NCBI RefSeq assembly: GCF_016595495.1
Contig: NZ_JAENIM010000046.1
Location: 62,001 to 126,000 of the forward strand
Length of the DNA: 64,000 nucleotides
Direction of reading: 5' to 3'
Source: Persicirhabdus sediminis
GTDB lineage: Bacteria; Verrucomicrobiota; Verrucomicrobiia; Verrucomicrobiales; Akkermansiaceae
Shown: positions 1,367 to 32,579 of the stretch, piece after piece
Layout of the letters: the number at the start of each line of letters is the position of its first letter
Numbering within the stretch: position 1 is the stretch's first letter
Translations under genes and position numbers: made by a program
The notes under the pieces: generated by a model
The model's input: only the letters and a program-made list of their open reading frames with translations
Told to the model about the DNA's origin: nothing
The model's database searches: none

Positions 1367-1441
1367 GCTCGGTTAGCTCAGCGGTAGAGCGCTACCTTGA
1401 CATGGTAGATGTCACAAGTTCAAATCTTGTACCGAGCACCA
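1367..1441 (+). tRNA. tRNA-Val (anticodon GAC)
   Basis: A complete cloverleaf can be drawn. The seven-base acceptor stem is GCTCGGT/ACCGAGC. The D arm contains TAGCTCAGC-GGTAGAGC. The anticodon stem CTACC/GGTAG closes the loop TTGACAT, giving anticodon GAC (valine). The T arm contains GTTCAAATC. The discriminator A and the CCA end are encoded in the DNA. A terminator follows directly, so the gene looks monocistronic. It borders an accessory region and a tandem repeat array. Confidence 0.95.
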
Positions 1442-1486: not shown

Positions 1487-1495
1487 CGCCTTATT

Positions 1496-2630
1496 GAGAA
1501 GCTAGCAAAAGCACGGCCAGAGGCCTAAGGTGCGCAACGCTGCAAAAAATGCACAGAGAGTATAGTAAAAGCCCAGCAATCTAGCTAGCCGCGTCCTATC
1601 TCGCAGGCACTCACTCATCTCTCTTCTCCACTCACTATTCAATCCCGCAGGGATTGCAGGCATCTAGACTGCGTGCGCTTTAGCGCCGCTCTCAGCTTCC
1701 AGCCACACGATAAAGTATTTGTGGAGAAGCTAGCAAAAGCCCGGCCAGAGGCCTAAGGTGCGCAACGCTGCAAAAAATGCACAGAGAGTATAGTAAAAGC
1801 CCAGCAATCTAGCTAGCCCCGTCCTATCTCGCAGGCACTCACTCATCTCTCTTCTCCACTCTCTATTCAATCCCGCAGGGATTGCAGGCATCTAGACTGC
1901 GTGCGCTTTAGCGCCGCTCTCAGCTTCTAGCCACACGATAAGGTATTTGTTGAGAAGCTAGCAAAAGCCCGGCCAGAGGCCTAAGGTGCGCAACGCTGCA
2001 AAAATGCACAGAGAGTATAGTAAAAGCCCAGCAATCTAGCTAGCCCCGTCCTATCTCGCAGGCACTCACTCATCTCTCTTCTCCACTCACTATTCAATCC
2101 CGCAGGGATTGCAGGCATCTAGACTGCGTGCGCTTTAGCGCCGCTCTCAGCTTCCAGCCGAACGATAAGGTATTTGTTGAGAAGCTAGCAAAAGCACGGC
2201 CAGAGGCCTAAGGTGCGCAACGCTGCAAAAATGCACAGAGAGTATAGTAAAAGCCCAGCAATCTAGCTAGCCGCGTCCTATCTCGCAGGAACTCACTCAT
2301 CTCTCTTCTCCACTCACTATTCAATCCCGCAGGGATTACAGGCATCTAGACTGCGTGCGCTTTAGCGCCGCTCTCAGCTTCTAGCCACACGATAAAGTAT
2401 TTGTTGAGAAGCTAGCAAAAGCCCGGCCAGAGCCCTAAGGTGCGCAACGCTGCAAAAAATGCACAGAGAGTATAGTAAAAGCCCAGCAATCTAGCTAGCC
2501 GCGTCCTATCTCCCAGGCACTCACTCATCTCTCTTCTCCACTCTCTATTCAATCCCGCAGGGATTGCAGGCATCTAGACTGCGTGCGCTTTAGCGCCGCT
2601 CTCAGCTTCTAGCCACACGATAAGCTATTT
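1496..2630. repeat. Tandem array of five 227-228 bp hairpin repeats (array 1)
   Basis: Units begin at 1496, 1724, 1952, 2179 and 2406 with GAGAAGCTAGCAAAAGC and differ by only a few substitutions and single-A indels. Each unit carries two hairpins. One is CAATCCC-GCA-GGGATTG. The other is GCGC-TTTA-GCGC, inside a larger imperfect stem that starts at TCTAGACTGCG. No open frame runs through the array. The second hairpin has the same TTTA loop and flanks as the repeats at 27577-28395 and 29376-30056, with a compensating base-pair change (GCGC/GCGC here, GTGC/GCAC there). The array is probably the REP-like target of the RAYT at 28588-29136. Confidence 0.9.
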
Positions 2631-3015
2631 GGCTAACTCCCCCGCGAGTAATTCCAGCTAGCTGGGTTTCATCATTCAGGAAATCATGCTACAAGTTCAG
2701 GAAATAATTACAAAAAAAGAGCTCAAGGCATGGTTTACCCCATTGGCTCATAGATGGCTGAAATTCAGCTTTGTCAATGCCATGAAAAATAGATCCACTC
2801 TATAGCCAAAGAATAGAATTCACTCTCCTCTCGTCAATCCCCCTAAGGACCCACAGGCTCCTGAAGGTTCTGCATTCAAGCGTATATAGTAACTGCTAAA
2901 ACCTGCCTGCCTAGCCGCCATCTAGCTATTTCATTGACTCATTAGAGGTTTCTAGCAACATGAGATTAATTCACAAAAGCGACCTATCAGACCATATCCC
3001 GAAGGCTTCATTCAC
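2631..3015. other. Non-coding stretch before the first repeated module
   Basis: No gene is supported in these 385 bases. From about 2931 there is a short segment, CTAGCTATTTCATTGACT followed by a TAGAG-TTTCTAGCAAC stretch, that recurs in degraded form near 4438 and 6222. It may be an edge of a mobile or cassette-like unit. Confidence 0.5.
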
Positions 3016-26150: not shown

Positions 26151-27524
26151 ATGACTGAAAGCAAGCAATCCGCCGGCTCATTTGACGAGCTCGGCCTCCT
26201 CCCTTCCCTACTCACTACTGTAAAAAAACAAGGTTACACAACACCTTCCCCCATCCAGGCTCAGGCGATCCCGCCCGTGCTTGCCCGCAAAGACGTAATG
26301 GCTGCCGCGCAAACCGGCACAGGTAAAACTGCTGGTTTCGCCCTGCCAATTCTCGACATTCTCAGCCAAGGCCCTCCAGCCCGTGCAAGACAAGTTCGCG
26401 CATTGATCCTCACACCTACTCGTGAGCTCGCAGCTCAGGTAGCTGAAAGTGTGCGCACCTACGGTGAAAGCCTGCAGCTACGCAGCGCCGTGGTATTTGG
26501 TGGCGTCAGCATCAACCCACAAATCCGCAAACTCAAAGGCGGCGTGGACATCCTCGTGGCTACCCCTGGACGACTGCTCGACCTACAAAACCAACGCGCC
26601 GTGCAGCTCAACGAGCTGGAAATTTTTGTCCTCGATGAAGCCGACCGCATGCTCGACATGGGGTTCATTCACGACATCAGAAAGATCATCAAAATCCTGC
26701 CAAAGCGACGTCAAAACTTGTTCTTTTCCGCGACCTTTTCCGACGATATCCGCCGCCTAGCGCGCACCATCGTCAACGATCCGGTGGAAATTTCCGTCAG
26801 CCCAAAAAACCAAACCGCCAGAACCGTCACCCATAGTTTGTATGAAGTCGACAAAAACGACAAATCCAAGCTGCTCACTGAGCTAGTGCACGAAAACAAC
26901 TGGAAGCAGGTTTTGGTATTTGTGCGCACCAAACATGGCGCCAACCGACTCAGCAAATACCTCGTTGGTAAAAAAATCAGCTCAGCGGCAATTCACGGCA
27001 ACAAAAGCCAAGGAGCGAGAACTCGCGCGCTAGACGAGTTCAAGTCCGGCCACGTTCGTGTGCTAGTGGCCACGGATATCGCCGCGCGCGGTATCGACAT
27101 CAGCCAGCTGCCTCACGTGATCAATTTCGACCTGCCAAATGTGCCGGAAGATTATGTCCACCGCATCGGCCGCACAGGCCGCGCAGGCACCAAAGGTGAA
27201 GCGATTTCATTGGTCTGTGCCGATGAATTTGAGCACCTCGTTAGCATCCAGAACCTCATCAAAGAAATCATCCCGCGTCACCAGCTGGATGGATTCTCAC
27301 CTAGCCATAAAGTGCCTGAAGCCAAGATCGGCCAACGGGTACCAAAAGCGAAAAAGAAAGCCAAATCTGGCGGAGGCGGACAAAAACGCCGCATCAAACC
27401 AGAACACCGCGATGGTCAGAAATCCGGTGAAATGGCCAGAGGTAACAAACCGCGCGCCAGCAGCAAACGCCGCACCGGCGCCCGCAAAAACGCTAGCCGA
27501 CGCCAGTCACGCGAGCATAGCTAA
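26151..27524 (+). CDS. rhlE: DEAD-box RNA helicase, RhlE type
   Basis: This ATP-dependent RNA helicase probably remodels ribosomal or messenger RNA. The 457-residue protein has all the core motifs: Q motif ([11 protein letters not shown]), Walker A (AQTGTGKT), PTRELA, GG and TPGR, the DEAD box ([13 protein letters not shown]), SAT (FFSATF), and the second RecA domain with [10 protein letters not shown] and [10 protein letters not shown]. The last 80 residues are strongly basic ([18 protein letters not shown] and an [13 protein letters not shown] stretch), a typical RNA-binding tail of RhlE-type proteins. A terminator follows nine bases after the stop. Confidence 0.92.
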
Positions 27525-27532
27525 GATTTTCC

Positions 27533-27567
27533 AACCAGCTGGCAACACTCGCCAGCTGGTTTTTTAT
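27533..27567 (+). terminator. Rho-independent terminator after the helicase
   Basis: The perfect stem ACCAGCTGGC/GCCAGCTGGT is followed by six T. The stem itself uses the CCAGCTGG word that is common across the window. Confidence 0.9.
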
Positions 27568-27576
27568 TCTCTAAAC

Positions 27577-28395
27577 GCATCTAGAGTGCGCGTGCTTTAG
27601 CACCGCTCTTAGCTTTAACCAGCTCCCGCGTCCGCTAGAACCCAACACTTAACCTAAGTACAAGGGGCTAGCTGATTAAATAAAGCTAATCATCATCACA
27701 AACTAGATTGCATGCCCGTCATTTCTAGCCAGCTGGACATGAATTCCAGCTGGCCAATCCCCCATACACCTGCATCTAGAGTGCGCGTGCTTTAGCACCG
27801 CTCTTAGCTTTAACTAGCTCCCGCGTCTGCTAGAACCCAACACTTAACCTAAGCACAAGGGGCTAGCTGATTAGATAAAGCTAATCATCATCACAAGCTA
27901 GATTGCATGCCCGTCATTTCTAGCCAGCTGGACATGAATTCCCGCTGGCCAATCCCCCATACACCTGCATCTAGAGTGCGCGTGCTTTAGCACCGCTCTT
28001 AGCTTTAACTAGCTCCCGCGTCCGCTAGAACCCAACACTTAACCTAAGTACAAGGGGCTAGCTGATTAAATAAAGCTAATCATCACAAGCTAGATTGCAT
28101 GCCCGTCATTTCTAGCCAGCTGGACATGAATTCCAGCTGGCCAATCCCCCCATACACCTGCATCTAGAGTGCGCGTGCTTTAGCACCGCTCTTAGCTTTA
28201 ACTAGCTCCCGCGTCTGCTAGAACCCAACACTTAACCTAAGCACAAGGGGCTAGCTGATTAGATAAAACTAATCATCATCACAAGCTAGATTGCATGCCC
28301 GTCATTTCTAGCCAGCTGGACATGAATTCCAGCTGGCCAAGCCCCCATACACCGCATCTAGAGTGCGCGAGCTTTAGCACCGCTCTTAGCTTTAC
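27577..28395. repeat. Tandem array of 193-195 bp hairpin repeats (array 2)
   Basis: Four full units begin at 27577, 27772, 27967 and 28160 with GCATCTAGAGTGCGC, and a fifth truncated unit starts at 28354. Units are about 97% alike. Each contains the hairpin GTGC-TTTA-GCAC inside a longer imperfect stem (CTAGAGTGCG...CGCTCTTAG). A second stem is GATTAG-ATAAAG-CTAATC, and two CCAGCTGG words flank ACATGAATT. No coding frame spans it. It lies on the left side of the RAYT gene, and the array on the right side has the hairpin in opposite orientation. Confidence 0.9.
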
Positions 28396-28587
28396 GCAGG
28401 TTTTGCATCAGCCAGAAACTAACACTTCACCAAATCACCTAACTATAGCCGCTAGTTGATTAGATCAAATGAATCACCACCAGGTAGATGACATTGGCTC
28501 AAGAGGAATGCATGACATCTCCTGACAAAAAGCTCCAATCTACCGAACACAGCGCCGCCCCCTGAAAGTGAGATAACACGTTGGAGG

Positions 28588-29136
28588 CTAATAGGGATCA
28601 ATAACCCTTACCAGATCAGTATTAAAGTTAGAGACAAACTTATACTGGGCTCGCGTAGAATTTCGCATGAACCAAGCCATCGAGCACCAATCGTAGTCTT
28701 CAGATACGCGTACTAAGCCGTGCTTAACAGGGTTTTGGTTAATGTAGGCCAAACGAGCCAAATACGAGCTATGATGCGTTATTTCTGTATCCCAATAGTT
28801 ATGCCAAACCTTGCGCCCAACAACATTATCTAGCTCATTAACATAGCGAGCGCTGCGTCCATGTAGGATTCTCATGAACTGCCCTAAGTGCTTATTTCCA
28901 TCTTTAGGTGAGCTCGCTAGTATGTGATAATGGTTGGAGAAAACCGCCCACGCTTGAGGTCGCCAACCAAATTCTTCTGCCAATTCCAGAAGTTGGTTGC
29001 TCAGAAACTTTAGGCGCTTTCTTGAACCAAAATAATGAGCTTTAAGATATGTGCCGGCAGTAATCATATAGGCTCCTCTATCACCTTTGAGATGAGGTGG
29101 AGCATGAGGCCATTTAATGGTTGGGTTCTTCTCCAT
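28588..29136 (-). CDS. REP-associated tyrosine transposase (RAYT, Y1 family)
   Basis: The 182-residue protein is a single-domain Y1 (HUH) nuclease related to IS200/IS605 transposases. The HUH motif is HYH at residues 69-71 in AVFSNHYHILASSP. The presumed catalytic Tyr is residue 131 in YLARLAYINQNPVKHGLV, a layout diagnostic of RAYTs. WHNYWDTEI and CSMAWF motifs are also conserved in this family. RAYTs cut and join single-stranded REP hairpins, and they are usually single-copy and without terminal repeats of their own. Here the gene is intact and sits between arrays 2 and 3, whose hairpins point in opposite directions. That makes these repeats its likely substrate. Confidence 0.92.
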   Translation of the reverse strand: MEKNPTIKWPHAPPHLKGDRGAYMITAGTYLKAHYFGSRKRLKFLSNQLLELAEEFGWRPQAWAVFSNHYHILASSPKDGNKHLGQFMRILHGRSARYVNELDNVVGRKVWHNYWDTEITHHSSYLARLAYINQNPVKHGLVRVSEDYDWCSMAWFMRNSTRAQYKFVSNFNTDLVRVIDPY

Positions 29137-29375
29137 TTACTAATTTTACCATACAATAGCTAATCTGCTAGCGACAGGCTACTGACAAAGCCCACGCTAC
29201 ACTATTTTTAACATCGCGCTCATTTAGAGTTCGGATTTTGCAACACTTAACCTAGCAATACATATGCTATCCTTAAGATCATTTTCTATCGAATCGTTAG
29301 AATGGCGACCTGGATATTCATCTAGCCCAATGCGAGATCAGTCGTGACTTGTACTACTCGATAAACACTACCTTG
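29137..29375. other. Non-coding DNA between the RAYT gene and array 3
   Basis: No gene is seen. A fragment near 29249 (GCAACACTTAACCTAG) matches part of the array 2 unit (CAACACTTAACCTAAG), so degraded repeat material extends to this side. The RAYT promoter should lie in the first 100 bases. Confidence 0.5.
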
Positions 29376-30056
29376 CTGAAATAGTCTTGTTGTTTGCATA
29401 ACATCAAAACTATGCCGCCTATTTGGCTAAGAGAATGACATTAGCTTTTGTAATGGGCACTAAAGTGCCTAACTAGCCGAAGCGGTATGAAGCTAGAACT
29501 AATGAAAGCGGTGCTAAAGCACGCGCACTCTAGAAAGAAGCACAGCTTGGTGAGTTAGTCATGTTGCTAGCTTAACATCAGACCTATTCCGACTAGTTGG
29601 CTAAGAGAATGACATTAGCTTTTGTAATGGGCACTAAAGTGCCTAGCTAGCCGAAGAAGCATTAAGCTAGAACTAATGAAAGCGGTGCTAAAGCACTCGC
29701 ACTCTAGAAAGAAGCACAGCTTGGTGAGTTAGTCATGTTGCCAGCTTAACATCAGACCTATTCCGACTAGTTGGCTAAGAGAATGACATTAGCTTTTGTA
29801 ATGGGCACTAAAGTGCCTAGCTAGCCGAAGAAGCAATAAGCTAGAACTAATGAAAGCGGTGCTAAAGCACGCGCACTCTAGAAAGAAGTACAGCTTGGTG
29901 AGTTAGTCATGTTGCTAGCTTAACATCAGACCTATTCCGACTAGTTGGCTAAGAGAATGACATTAGCTTTTGTAATGGGCACTAAAGTGCCTAGCTAGCC
30001 GAAGAAGCATTAAGCTAGAACTAATGAAAGCGGTGCTAAAGCACGCGCACTCTAGA
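29376..30056. repeat. Tandem array of 174 bp hairpin repeats (array 3)
   Basis: The marker GAAAGCGGTGCTAAAGCAC occurs at 29504, 29678, 29852 and 30026, exactly 174 bases apart. The first unit is more diverged. Each unit has two hairpins: GGCAC-TAAA-GTGCC, then GTGC-TAAA-GCAC, which is the reverse complement of the array 2 hairpin including its CTAGAGTGCGC flank. The array ends at a TCTAGA, 11 bases before a terminator. It is the right-hand partner of array 2 around the RAYT gene. Confidence 0.9.
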
Positions 30057-30066
30057 TCTCTTTAAA

Positions 30067-30122: not shown

Positions 30123-32579
30123 CTAGCGGCGGCGCATATTGCGGTTCCACAATGACTCAGAATTCTTTTTCGCCTCCTGAGGTTCAGCTGGGTTGTAATT
30201 ATCCAGCGCCTTAGCTGGCAACACACCAGCAGCTTCGTGGCTCTTAGCTTTATCGTCGATCACATAGCGTTGCGCAATGTCATCTTGCACGGCCTGTTCG
30301 TCAGATTTGTTAGCAACGATTTGCGGCTGAATAAAGATCAGCAGCTCACGGCGTTTGGTTTCAATTTTTGTGCTCTTAAACAGATTACCAATGCCTGGAA
30401 TGTGGCTGATAATTGGAATGCCAGTCACATTGTCTTCGTGTGTTTCGGTGACCAAACCACCGAGTACCACGGTATCATTATTGCGAACTGTTACCGTCGT
30501 AGTGATTTCCTCAGTACCGATGATAGGCACTTCGTTAGTATCCACAGTTTGTGATCCAACAATTTGATCATTGAGCAAAGCAATTTCCATGGTCACCTCA
30601 TTTTTGGAGTTGATCAATGGAACCACTTCCAGCTTGAGCACCACATCGCGGTACTCGATGTTAGTACTTTGCGTAGCATTAGATCCACCACCACTGGTGA
30701 AACTATTGGTAGGCACAGCGACTCGCTGACCGGATGAAATCACAGCCATGCGGTTGTTGGCGGTATAGACAGTTGGGCGTGAGATCACCTCAAAGTCGTT
30801 GTTACTTTCCATCGCCTTGATGTAAACATTGAGGTCGCCAGTCGTCCCGTAGAGGTTCAGGCCTGATGAGGTTGGGAAAGCACTTGCTGTCACTAGATCC
30901 TTAATATCAACACCCGAATTTGTCACGCCGTTGGTATTGCCACCAGCCCAGCCGTCGCCACCATTGCCACCGTAGGTTTGTAACCAATCAACACCGTATT
31001 GTAGATTATCAGTCAGGTTGAGCTGACCAAACACGGTGGAAATCATCACCTGCAGCGGCTGAGTATCCATTTCATCTAATAGACCTGAAATCACACGCAG
31101 ACTTTCAGGCGGCCCTTGCACGATGATGCTATTTGTCAGGTTATCTGCTACTAACAATGTCTTACCAATCAACATGGACTCAGGGGCATCGCTAACCGTT
31201 GGGCTAGAAAGCGAATTGCCTCGCGAAGTGCCACTGCCTGAGCTGTTGTTATTTGAGGTATTGTTACGGGTATTATTGGTAGAGTTATTTGAGCGGTTAT
31301 TATTTCCTCTCGAGCTACCACTGCTGTTAGCGTTTGTCCCTTGTAATGATTCCAATGCCGTTGCTGCCACATCCATGAAGTCAGCTGCACGCATGAAACG
31401 CAATTTACGTTTGAGGAAATTGCTGCGTTCTTGAGCTGAGTCAAACTCGTGAATCAGACGCTCAACAAACATAATGTCGATAGGACGACCCATCACCAGA
31501 ATGCGGTTAGTACGCATATCTGGAATGATCTGCACAGGAATGTCTTCACCCGCTGAGCTACCGTCACCGCCAGCTGCTGCGCCACCAGATTGTACACCAG
31601 GAGGGCGCGCCGCATTGTTATTGCTGCTCACTTTTTTCACGCCAGCAGATGTCTTTGCTTGCTGCTGCGAGTTCATGATTTCGTTGAGTGTAGCTGCTAA
31701 CTCCTCAGCATCTGCGTAGATGAGAGAAATAAATCGCTGTCCAACAGACTGCGATGGCACGTCGATGCTTTCGCGCACTTCTTCAAGAAAGCGAATCAGC
31801 GGAGTTTTCTCAGTGATGATCACCGCAGCGGCGTTAGGCACTGGCGTGATTTTCCCACCTTCACTGAAACTTCCCACCATCTGAGTGAAATTGCGCACCG
31901 CCTCTTCGGGTTTGATGTACTGCAAATTCATCTTGTAGGTGACAAAAACGTCGCCCTCTGGCAGGTCCTCGTAGTCAGTGATATAGAGTGTACCCTCTTG
32001 TGAGGCTGTTGTTGTTCCCGCTCCTTTTGGTACTAACTTTACTTCATTCTCACCACTTGGCACAAAAGCGTAGTTCTCCATATTCAGAAGCTTCTCTAGC
32101 AAAATTGCACCCTGTCGGTTAGTCAGCGGTCCACGTTGGTGGAAGCGAAACTCCATGCCCTGAGTAGACGAGCTCAGCAATACGCGTTTGCCAGTCAGCT
32201 GGTAATAAAGATCTGCCACCTCGATGTCATCCATGTTCATGCGCTCTTCCACTTTGCCTTTGGCAATGTAGATGCCGTTAGGATCAACGCTGTCATCTAG
32301 CTGGATGCCGCCATTCATGCGGTTAGCTCCAGGAAGTGGTGGCTGAGCTTGCTCGTTATTGACTTCTCTTGGTTCTGCTGGCCTTTCTACTGGCCTTTCT
32401 ACTGGCTGAGCAGGTCTAACCACTGGGCGAGCTGGACGTATCACTGGACGCTTTGGCACTGCATGTTCCTGCTCGACTGGCTCAACGCCCGGCGGTGCTT
32501 CAGCGGGCTCGTTTTCCTGCGCTACCAGCAGTTGGCTGGCGCTCAGGGCTGATAAGAAAATCAGTAATGGTTTTTTCAT
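30123..32579 (-). CDS. gspD: Type II secretion secretin
   Basis: This is the outer-membrane channel of the type II secretion system. The 818-residue protein has a signal peptide (1-20) and a Pro/Arg-rich linker with repeated RPARPVVRPAQPVERP-like text (about 40-75). An N0-like domain and three N-type ring domains follow (about 110-425, including VPNAAAVIITEKTPLIRFLEEV and RTNRILVMGRPIDI). The C-terminal secretin domain (about 490-760) has the hallmark VPIIGTEEITTTVTVRNNDT and VVLGGLVTE. An Asn/Ser/Thr-rich insert of about 45 residues (about 425-470) interrupts the N3-type region. A short charged tail follows the channel. It is the last gene of the gspG-D operon. Confidence 0.95.
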   Translation of the reverse strand: MKKPLLIFLSALSASQLLVAQENEPAEAPPGVEPVEQEHAVPKRPVIRPARPVVRPAQPVERPVERPAEPREVNNEQAQPPLPGANRMNGGIQLDDSVDPNGIYIAKGKVEERMNMDDIEVADLYYQLTGKRVLLSSSTQGMEFRFHQRGPLTNRQGAILLEKLLNMENYAFVPSGENEVKLVPKGAGTTTASQEGTLYITDYEDLPEGDVFVTYKMNLQYIKPEEAVRNFTQMVGSFSEGGKITPVPNAAAVIITEKTPLIRFLEEVRESIDVPSQSVGQRFISLIYADAEELAATLNEIMNSQQQAKTSAGVKKVSSNNNAARPPGVQSGGAAAGGDGSSAGEDIPVQIIPDMRTNRILVMGRPIDIMFVERLIHEFDSAQERSNFLKRKLRFMRAADFMDVAATALESLQGTNANSSGSSRGNNNRSNNSTNNTRNNTSNNNSSGSGTSRGNSLSSPTVSDAPESMLIGKTLLVADNLTNSIIVQGPPESLRVISGLLDEMDTQPLQVMISTVFGQLNLTDNLQYGVDWLQTYGGNGGDGWAGGNTNGVTNSGVDIKDLVTASAFPTSSGLNLYGTTGDLNVYIKAMESNNDFEVISRPTVYTANNRMAVISSGQRVAVPTNSFTSGGGSNATQSTNIEYRDVVLKLEVVPLINSKNEVTMEIALLNDQIVGSQTVDTNEVPIIGTEEITTTVTVRNNDTVVLGGLVTETHEDNVTGIPIISHIPGIGNLFKSTKIETKRRELLIFIQPQIVANKSDEQAVQDDIAQRYVIDDKAKSHEAAGVLPAKALDNYNPAEPQEAKKNSESLWNRNMRRR

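Follow-up and report, generated by a model that had tools for sequence, protein, structure and literature searches.

In Escherichia coli, the REP-associated tyrosine transposase TnpA_REP binds the REP strand in its folded form, takes a tetranucleotide 5' of the hairpin foot as a guide and cuts at a nearby CT (PMC8266576), and its residues Q95 and R104 contact the GTAG (PMC6006769). Within the TnpA_Y1 classification of Quentin et al. 2018 (PMC6006769), subclass 2.8 consists of 8 cyanobacterial proteins associated with GT(A/G)G REPs. In P. fluorescens SBW25, REPs form tandem arrays with a 112+72 bp period, and some REPIN clusters lie beside RAYT genes (PMC3116915). The specificity of RAYTs has so far been worked out on GTAG REPs. 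The locus analysed here lies in a stretch of 64,000 nucleotides (the window), and it is read as a REPtron, that is, as a domesticated transposase of the Y1 (HuH) type together with the REP hairpins cognate to it, in which the long-unit arrays formed secondarily; the probability of this reading is put at roughly 0.8.

As shown in Table 1, the transposase gene is situated between two arrays delimited with Tandem Repeats Finder (TRF), where the units show 96% matches in array 2 and 95% in array 3. The outermost REPs of the two arrays form an inverted pair with the 5' tags directed outward, which brackets the whole locus. The locus is convergent-intergenic, with a helicase gene and a secretin gene on either side, and this adjacency is not conserved among 29 secretin loci of relatives. 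A 23-nt sequence of hairpin and flank, CTAGAGTGCGCGTGCTTTAGCAC, occurs nine times in the window, five times forward in array 2 and four times in reverse in array 3, against an expectation of 0.00 from 100 shuffles. Each unit of array 3 also contains a second hairpin, GGCAC/TAAA/GTGCC. R1, a covariance model built from RAYT-flanking REPs, gives 14 matches in the window.

Table 1. Window coordinates of the RAYT locus, its neighbours and the third REP array.
Feature	Coordinates	Strand	Evidence
RAYT (REP-associated tyrosine transposase), 182 aa, intact	28588..29136	-	ORF of 182 codons; Y1_Tnp and NF047646 scores; 4er8 by sequence and fold; invariant residues
Array 2 (five forward type-A REPs in 195-bp units, x 4.2)	27577..28394	+	TRF; R1 matches 27577, 27772, 27967, 28160, 28354
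Array 3 (four reverse type-A REPs in 174-bp units, x 3.9)	29382..30056	-	TRF; R1 matches 29499, 29673, 29847, 30021
Array 2, outermost REP	27577..27615	+	
Array 3, outermost REP	30021..30059	-	
Array 1 (five same-family REPs with the GCGC/TTTA/GCGC stem variant in 228-bp units, x 5)	1494..2631	+	TRF, R1
DEAD-box RNA helicase gene, left neighbour, ending 53 bp before array 2	26151..27524	+	
Secretin gene, right neighbour, ending 67 bp past array 3	30123..32579	-	

A tRNA-Val (gac) gene is located directly upstream of array 1, at window positions 1367-1441. The window also contains 27 sites of the palindrome CCAGCTGG (for example, at 27535, 27552, 38609 and 52519), where shuffled sequences give 1.1 on expectation, and seven of these sites fall within array 2; we take this palindrome to resemble the over-represented octamers of HIP1 type in cyanobacteria.

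The product of the gene is a RAYT belonging to the class 2 Y1 HuH enzymes. It matches Y1_Tnp at 23.8 bits (cut-off 23), and it contains an HYH motif at residues 69-71 and a putative catalytic residue, Tyr131, within YINQNPVKHG. The score against the NCBIfam equivalog NF047646 (REP-associated tyrosine transposase) is 78.1 bits, which is 2 under the cut-off of 80, and a 59% identical paralog in the same genome scores 75.4 bits. E. coli TnpA_REP (4er8) is the sole clear sequence relative among the solved structures, and it is also the best fold match in Foldseek (E 3e-9) of the predicted model, which was obtained with AF2 at a mean pLDDT of 84. In the VIA-align comparison, the model superimposes on 4er8 with Z 15.8 and rmsd 2.6 over 152 residues, while the next family, IS608, reaches Z 10.4. 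The residues H69, H71, W111, Y131, N135 and H139 are invariant across 19 homologs, in which HYH and Y-x-x-x-NP are conserved save for NP/NA variation. In the sequence alignment, Q95 and R104 of the E. coli enzyme fall on H112 and T121; two guide-contacting residues of the E. coli enzyme are replaced in this RAYT clade.

The REP associated with this enzyme is about 38 nt long and consists of the tag (T/G)(A/G)GA(G/C)TGC, a stem-loop and GCTTT; this frame, with some TGA variants, is common to the hairpins beside RAYT homologs in related genomes. The stem of the type-A REP is GCG-bulge-GTGC/TTTA/GCAC-CGC, where a one-base bulge follows GCG. In array 1, one stem pair is changed on both sides relative to type A, from GTGC/GCAC to GCGC/GCGC, which is a compensatory change. 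Five stem pairs with two-sided changes were found in an alignment of 24 REPs, where 94% of the cells are paired, compared to 31-57% when the partners are slid by 1-3 columns. No GTAG or GTGG tetranucleotide was found 0-2 nt from the hairpin foot, where the REPs of the own genome have AGA(G/C) or GGA(G/C), and the tag at 38 of 39 loci of other genomes is GGA(G/C), AGA(G/C) or TGA(G/C). A literature search for the tag string returned nothing relevant.

These results uphold the initial annotation in placing an intact transposase between two inverted hairpin arrays and, by the Y1_Tnp match, the motifs and the 4er8 match in sequence and fold, in calling it a RAYT. The hairpin GTGC-TTTA-GCAC that it described is present, although the stem is longer than it stated, and its account of arrays 2 and 3 stands, to which the REP counts of both and the variant array 1 are added here.

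In the genome as a whole, at least 141 REP copies were found among 150 candidates scored with R1, and 42 of 44 REP clusters lie outside ORFs. Where a clear gene pair surrounds the cluster, 17 of 38 pairs are convergent, whereas the window as a whole has 4 convergent pairs out of 48. The orientation of the REPs shows no link to the local GC skew (p 0.30). Evenly chosen sequence amounting to 400 kb contains zero REPs, and its three long arrays are likewise without REP.

The association between REP and RAYT extends across genomes. In a first survey, a REP was found beside the gene for 15 of 15 close RAYT homologs. In further genomes, a regular expression located REPs at 24 of 25 RAYT loci, and the 25th (L209) has an R1 match 55 bp from the gene. 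In another set of RAYT loci, from Verrucomicrobia, Acidobacteria, Planctomycetes, Armatimonadota, Hydrogenedentes and others, REPs are present at 38 of 39; the same enzyme-and-hairpin pair is found in several bacterial phyla. The homologous RAYT genes have REPs on both sides in inverted orientation. With R1, matches were obtained in 13 of 15 genomes with RAYT and in 10 of 42 without, the genomes in these counts not being phylogenetically independent. R1 derives from RAYT-flanking REPs, and this bias is answered in part by the genomes held out from its construction, of which 57 of 60 with RAYT contain the REP, compared to about 43 of 176 without close RAYT; the Fisher p of 2e-23 is too small on account of kinship, and the totals of new genomes were taken from the genome numbering.

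A second RAYT, the 59% identical paralog, is located about 43 kb away and is accompanied by inverted arrays of a separate REP type, GGA(G/C)TGCGGCGATCCTTCGCCGC, so that each of the two RAYTs in this genome is matched by a REP type of its own. The dispersal of the REPs, their extragenic positions, the inverted flanks at homologous RAYTs and the presence that tracks RAYT among genomes support the conclusion that the REPs belong to the RAYT, as the initial annotation had supposed. The genome-wide map of the hairpin that it proposed shows the copy numbers and extragenic positions given above, mostly with direct neighbours. The equal frequency in genomes lacking RAYT that it named as a counter-argument was not observed; the REP does occur in some genomes that have no close RAYT, but these are the minority.

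Among this minority, G260, which consists of one contig and has no close RAYT, contains 51 REP copies, most of which form doublets with a spacing of about 162 bp. The distant Y1 homologs in REP-bearing genomes without close RAYT have a REP by R1 at 0 of 15 loci, and the REPs of G260 look like an orphan population because its distant Y1 homologs are not REP-flanked. In G249, a RAYT fragment (L333) cut by a contig end lies beside a REP. The REP populations without close RAYT, including those of G260, G142, G215, G286 and others, are candidates for orphan or trans-mobilised REPINs. Three more distant RAYTs (L103, L104 and L108) are without this REP; their surroundings contain different hairpins, centred on TTTA or TAAA, such as GAGCTTTAGCTC.

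The arrangement of the REPs within the own genome is mostly direct. Adjacent REP pairs have the same orientation in 71 cases and opposite orientation in 3, so that the inverted doublets of REPIN type do not characterise this genome, whereas the corresponding same-to-opposite counts in complete relatives are 0:21 (G260) and 1:19 (G035), that is, inverted doublets. When the arrays were searched for hidden inverted partners with a relaxed R1, additional REPs on the opposite strand turned up at C44:65191-69826 and C44:111972 and nowhere else. The array units fall into 20 spacer groups; therefore, the REP is common to the arrays and the spacer is local. The ends of 25 arrays are uniform in phase with respect to the REP (KS p 0.77 and 0.29), and the arrays look secondarily amplified because their ends do not coincide with REPs. 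These observations fit a process in which the REP was seeded first and its surroundings were tandemly amplified later by slippage or unequal recombination, any role of the RAYT in the amplification being hypothetical.

The alternative that the RAYT itself builds the arrays has a small but appreciable chance of being correct. In this case, the enzyme would cut at two REPs, or circularise a REP-bounded segment, and reinsert the units in tandem, each unit being the product from one REP to the next. This is favoured by arrays 2 and 3, both of which start within 3-8 nt of the 5' end of the outermost REP, and by the RAYT loci of relatives, 8 of 43 of which contain an array with a period of at least 80, all of these with a REP in the unit, while the only such array at 29 control secretin loci is without REP. 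It is opposed by the random phase of the array ends, by the spacers, which vary from array to array, and by G022, a genome with no close RAYT that nevertheless has a REP array with a 158-bp period. The RAYT is probably not excising units, because the phase of the ends with respect to the REPs is random and the spacer is a different one in almost all arrays. Excision of each REP-bounded unit by the RAYT was considered as the main model and dropped, as the boundaries of the 25 arrays are uniform in phase.

It is very unlikely that the hairpins are host sequences retained downstream of genes to terminate transcription or to influence the stability of the mRNA, with the RAYT as an incidental neighbour. 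Such roles are known for REPs (PMC6006769), and the excess of convergent intergenic positions would agree with them; however, the same hairpin frame with its tag occurs beside homologous RAYTs in several phyla, its presence tracks RAYT among genomes, and two RAYTs are matched with two REP types in one genome.

An ordinary element of IS200/IS605 type, in which the segment 27577-30056 would be mobilised as a whole and the REPs would be its termini, is most improbable. The inverted REPs at both outer ends beside a Y1 transposase and the relationship of the fold to the IS608 and ISDra2 transposases are what such an element would have. However, the gene is low-copy, with one copy and one 59% identical paralog and no near-identical second copy in the genome, yet more than 100 REPs exist without the gene; the gene flanks vary between loci, and the Y-x-x-x-NP motif and the Z scores given above indicate a fold like that of 4er8 rather than of IS200 type. 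The own genome also contains six solitary tnpA genes of IS200-like type, coding for about 150 aa each (L024-L029). Of these, L024, L025, L026 and L028 adjoin arrays of long units that carry different hairpins; L026 has such arrays on either side, with units of 222 and 223 bp. A further eighteen longer Y1 proteins (L030-L047), most of 370-410 aa and several cut at contig ends, fall into two groups of near-identical members that were apparently multiplied recently. The reading of the repeats as mere minisatellites with a chance hairpin, for which the tandem units being 95-96% alike could be cited, can practically be discarded, as it is already contradicted by the compensatory stem changes and by the core of about 38 nt common to arrays with unrelated spacers, and no REP occurs in the 400 kb of evenly chosen sequence, including its three long arrays.

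On the REPtron reading, and by analogy with the E. coli enzyme, the RAYT would bind the folded REP in single-stranded form, probably on the lagging strand. It would then cut at flanking CT dinucleotides and rejoin the ends. The GGA(G/C)/AGA(G/C) tag would serve the RAYT as the guide instead of GTAG. Cutting and rejoining could then seed further REP copies outside genes, often between convergent ones. The long-unit arrays would arise afterwards, when the hairpin promotes replication slippage or unequal recombination and the segment surrounding a REP is thereby tandemly amplified. A broader proposal, which is advanced tentatively and is rather doubtful as a whole, is that a RAYT clade in several phyla uses the GGA(G/C)/AGA(G/C) guide with altered guide-contacting residues, and that single direct REPs here, not REPIN doublets, spread and seed long arrays, contrary to the view that doublets are required.

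A clade across phyla with another conserved tag, together with two paralogous RAYTs and two REP types in one cell, provides a natural test of the co-evolution of enzyme and guide. The contrast between direct REP arrays with private spacers here and the inverted doublets of relatives makes it possible to test whether the spread of REPs requires REPIN doublets and whether REPs drive the growth of minisatellites in bacteria.

In comparison with known systems, the locus shares with the REPtrons of E. coli and of Pseudomonas/Stenotrophomonas (RAYT/TnpA_REP groups 2 and 3) a single low-copy Y1 HuH enzyme with Y-x-x-x-NP and a fold nearest to 4er8, the inverted REP hairpins flanking the gene and the dispersed, extragenic REPs. 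Like group 2 REPs, type A has an imperfect, bulged stem. Unlike in these GTAG REPtrons, the tag here is GGA(G/C) or AGA(G/C) plus T, and the REPs are mostly direct repeats, not inverted doublets; unlike in the E. coli enzyme, H and T occupy the positions aligned with Q95 and R104.

Compared by motif table, the protein resembles subclass 2.8 (PMC6006769) in NHYH, in W followed by H, in Y-x-x-x-NP, in a length of about 180-200 aa and in a proline-rich N-terminus (WPHAPPH), whereas the tag is not GT(A/G)G and the host range is mainly Verrucomicrobia together with other phyla. Because GT(A/G)G REPs were not found here and the comparison is by description only, the RAYT is not filed in subclass 2.8; it is filed as class 2 with a non-GTAG REP. 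Unlike in subclass 2.1, the protein is without a long C-terminus. The TIRtrons/TIRYTs (PMC3733652) are similar in having RAYT-like genes flanked by inverted non-GTAG repeats, some of them clustered, and differ in that the repeats here are tagged hairpins in the frame GGA(G/C)TGC...GCTTT, not GGGGWSAS terminal inverted repeats.

Evenly spaced REPs in long-period tandem arrays are shared with SBW25 (PMC3116915), and because of this precedent the long units are not new in themselves, contrary to the initial annotation, which had suggested that they would form a distinct arrangement. The two largest arrays of SBW25 are almost identical copies and most of its REPs are in inverted doublets, whereas here inverted neighbours are rare. 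The true differences of the present system from those described are the non-GTAG tag, REP neighbours that are direct rather than inverted, and a different spacer in nearly every array.
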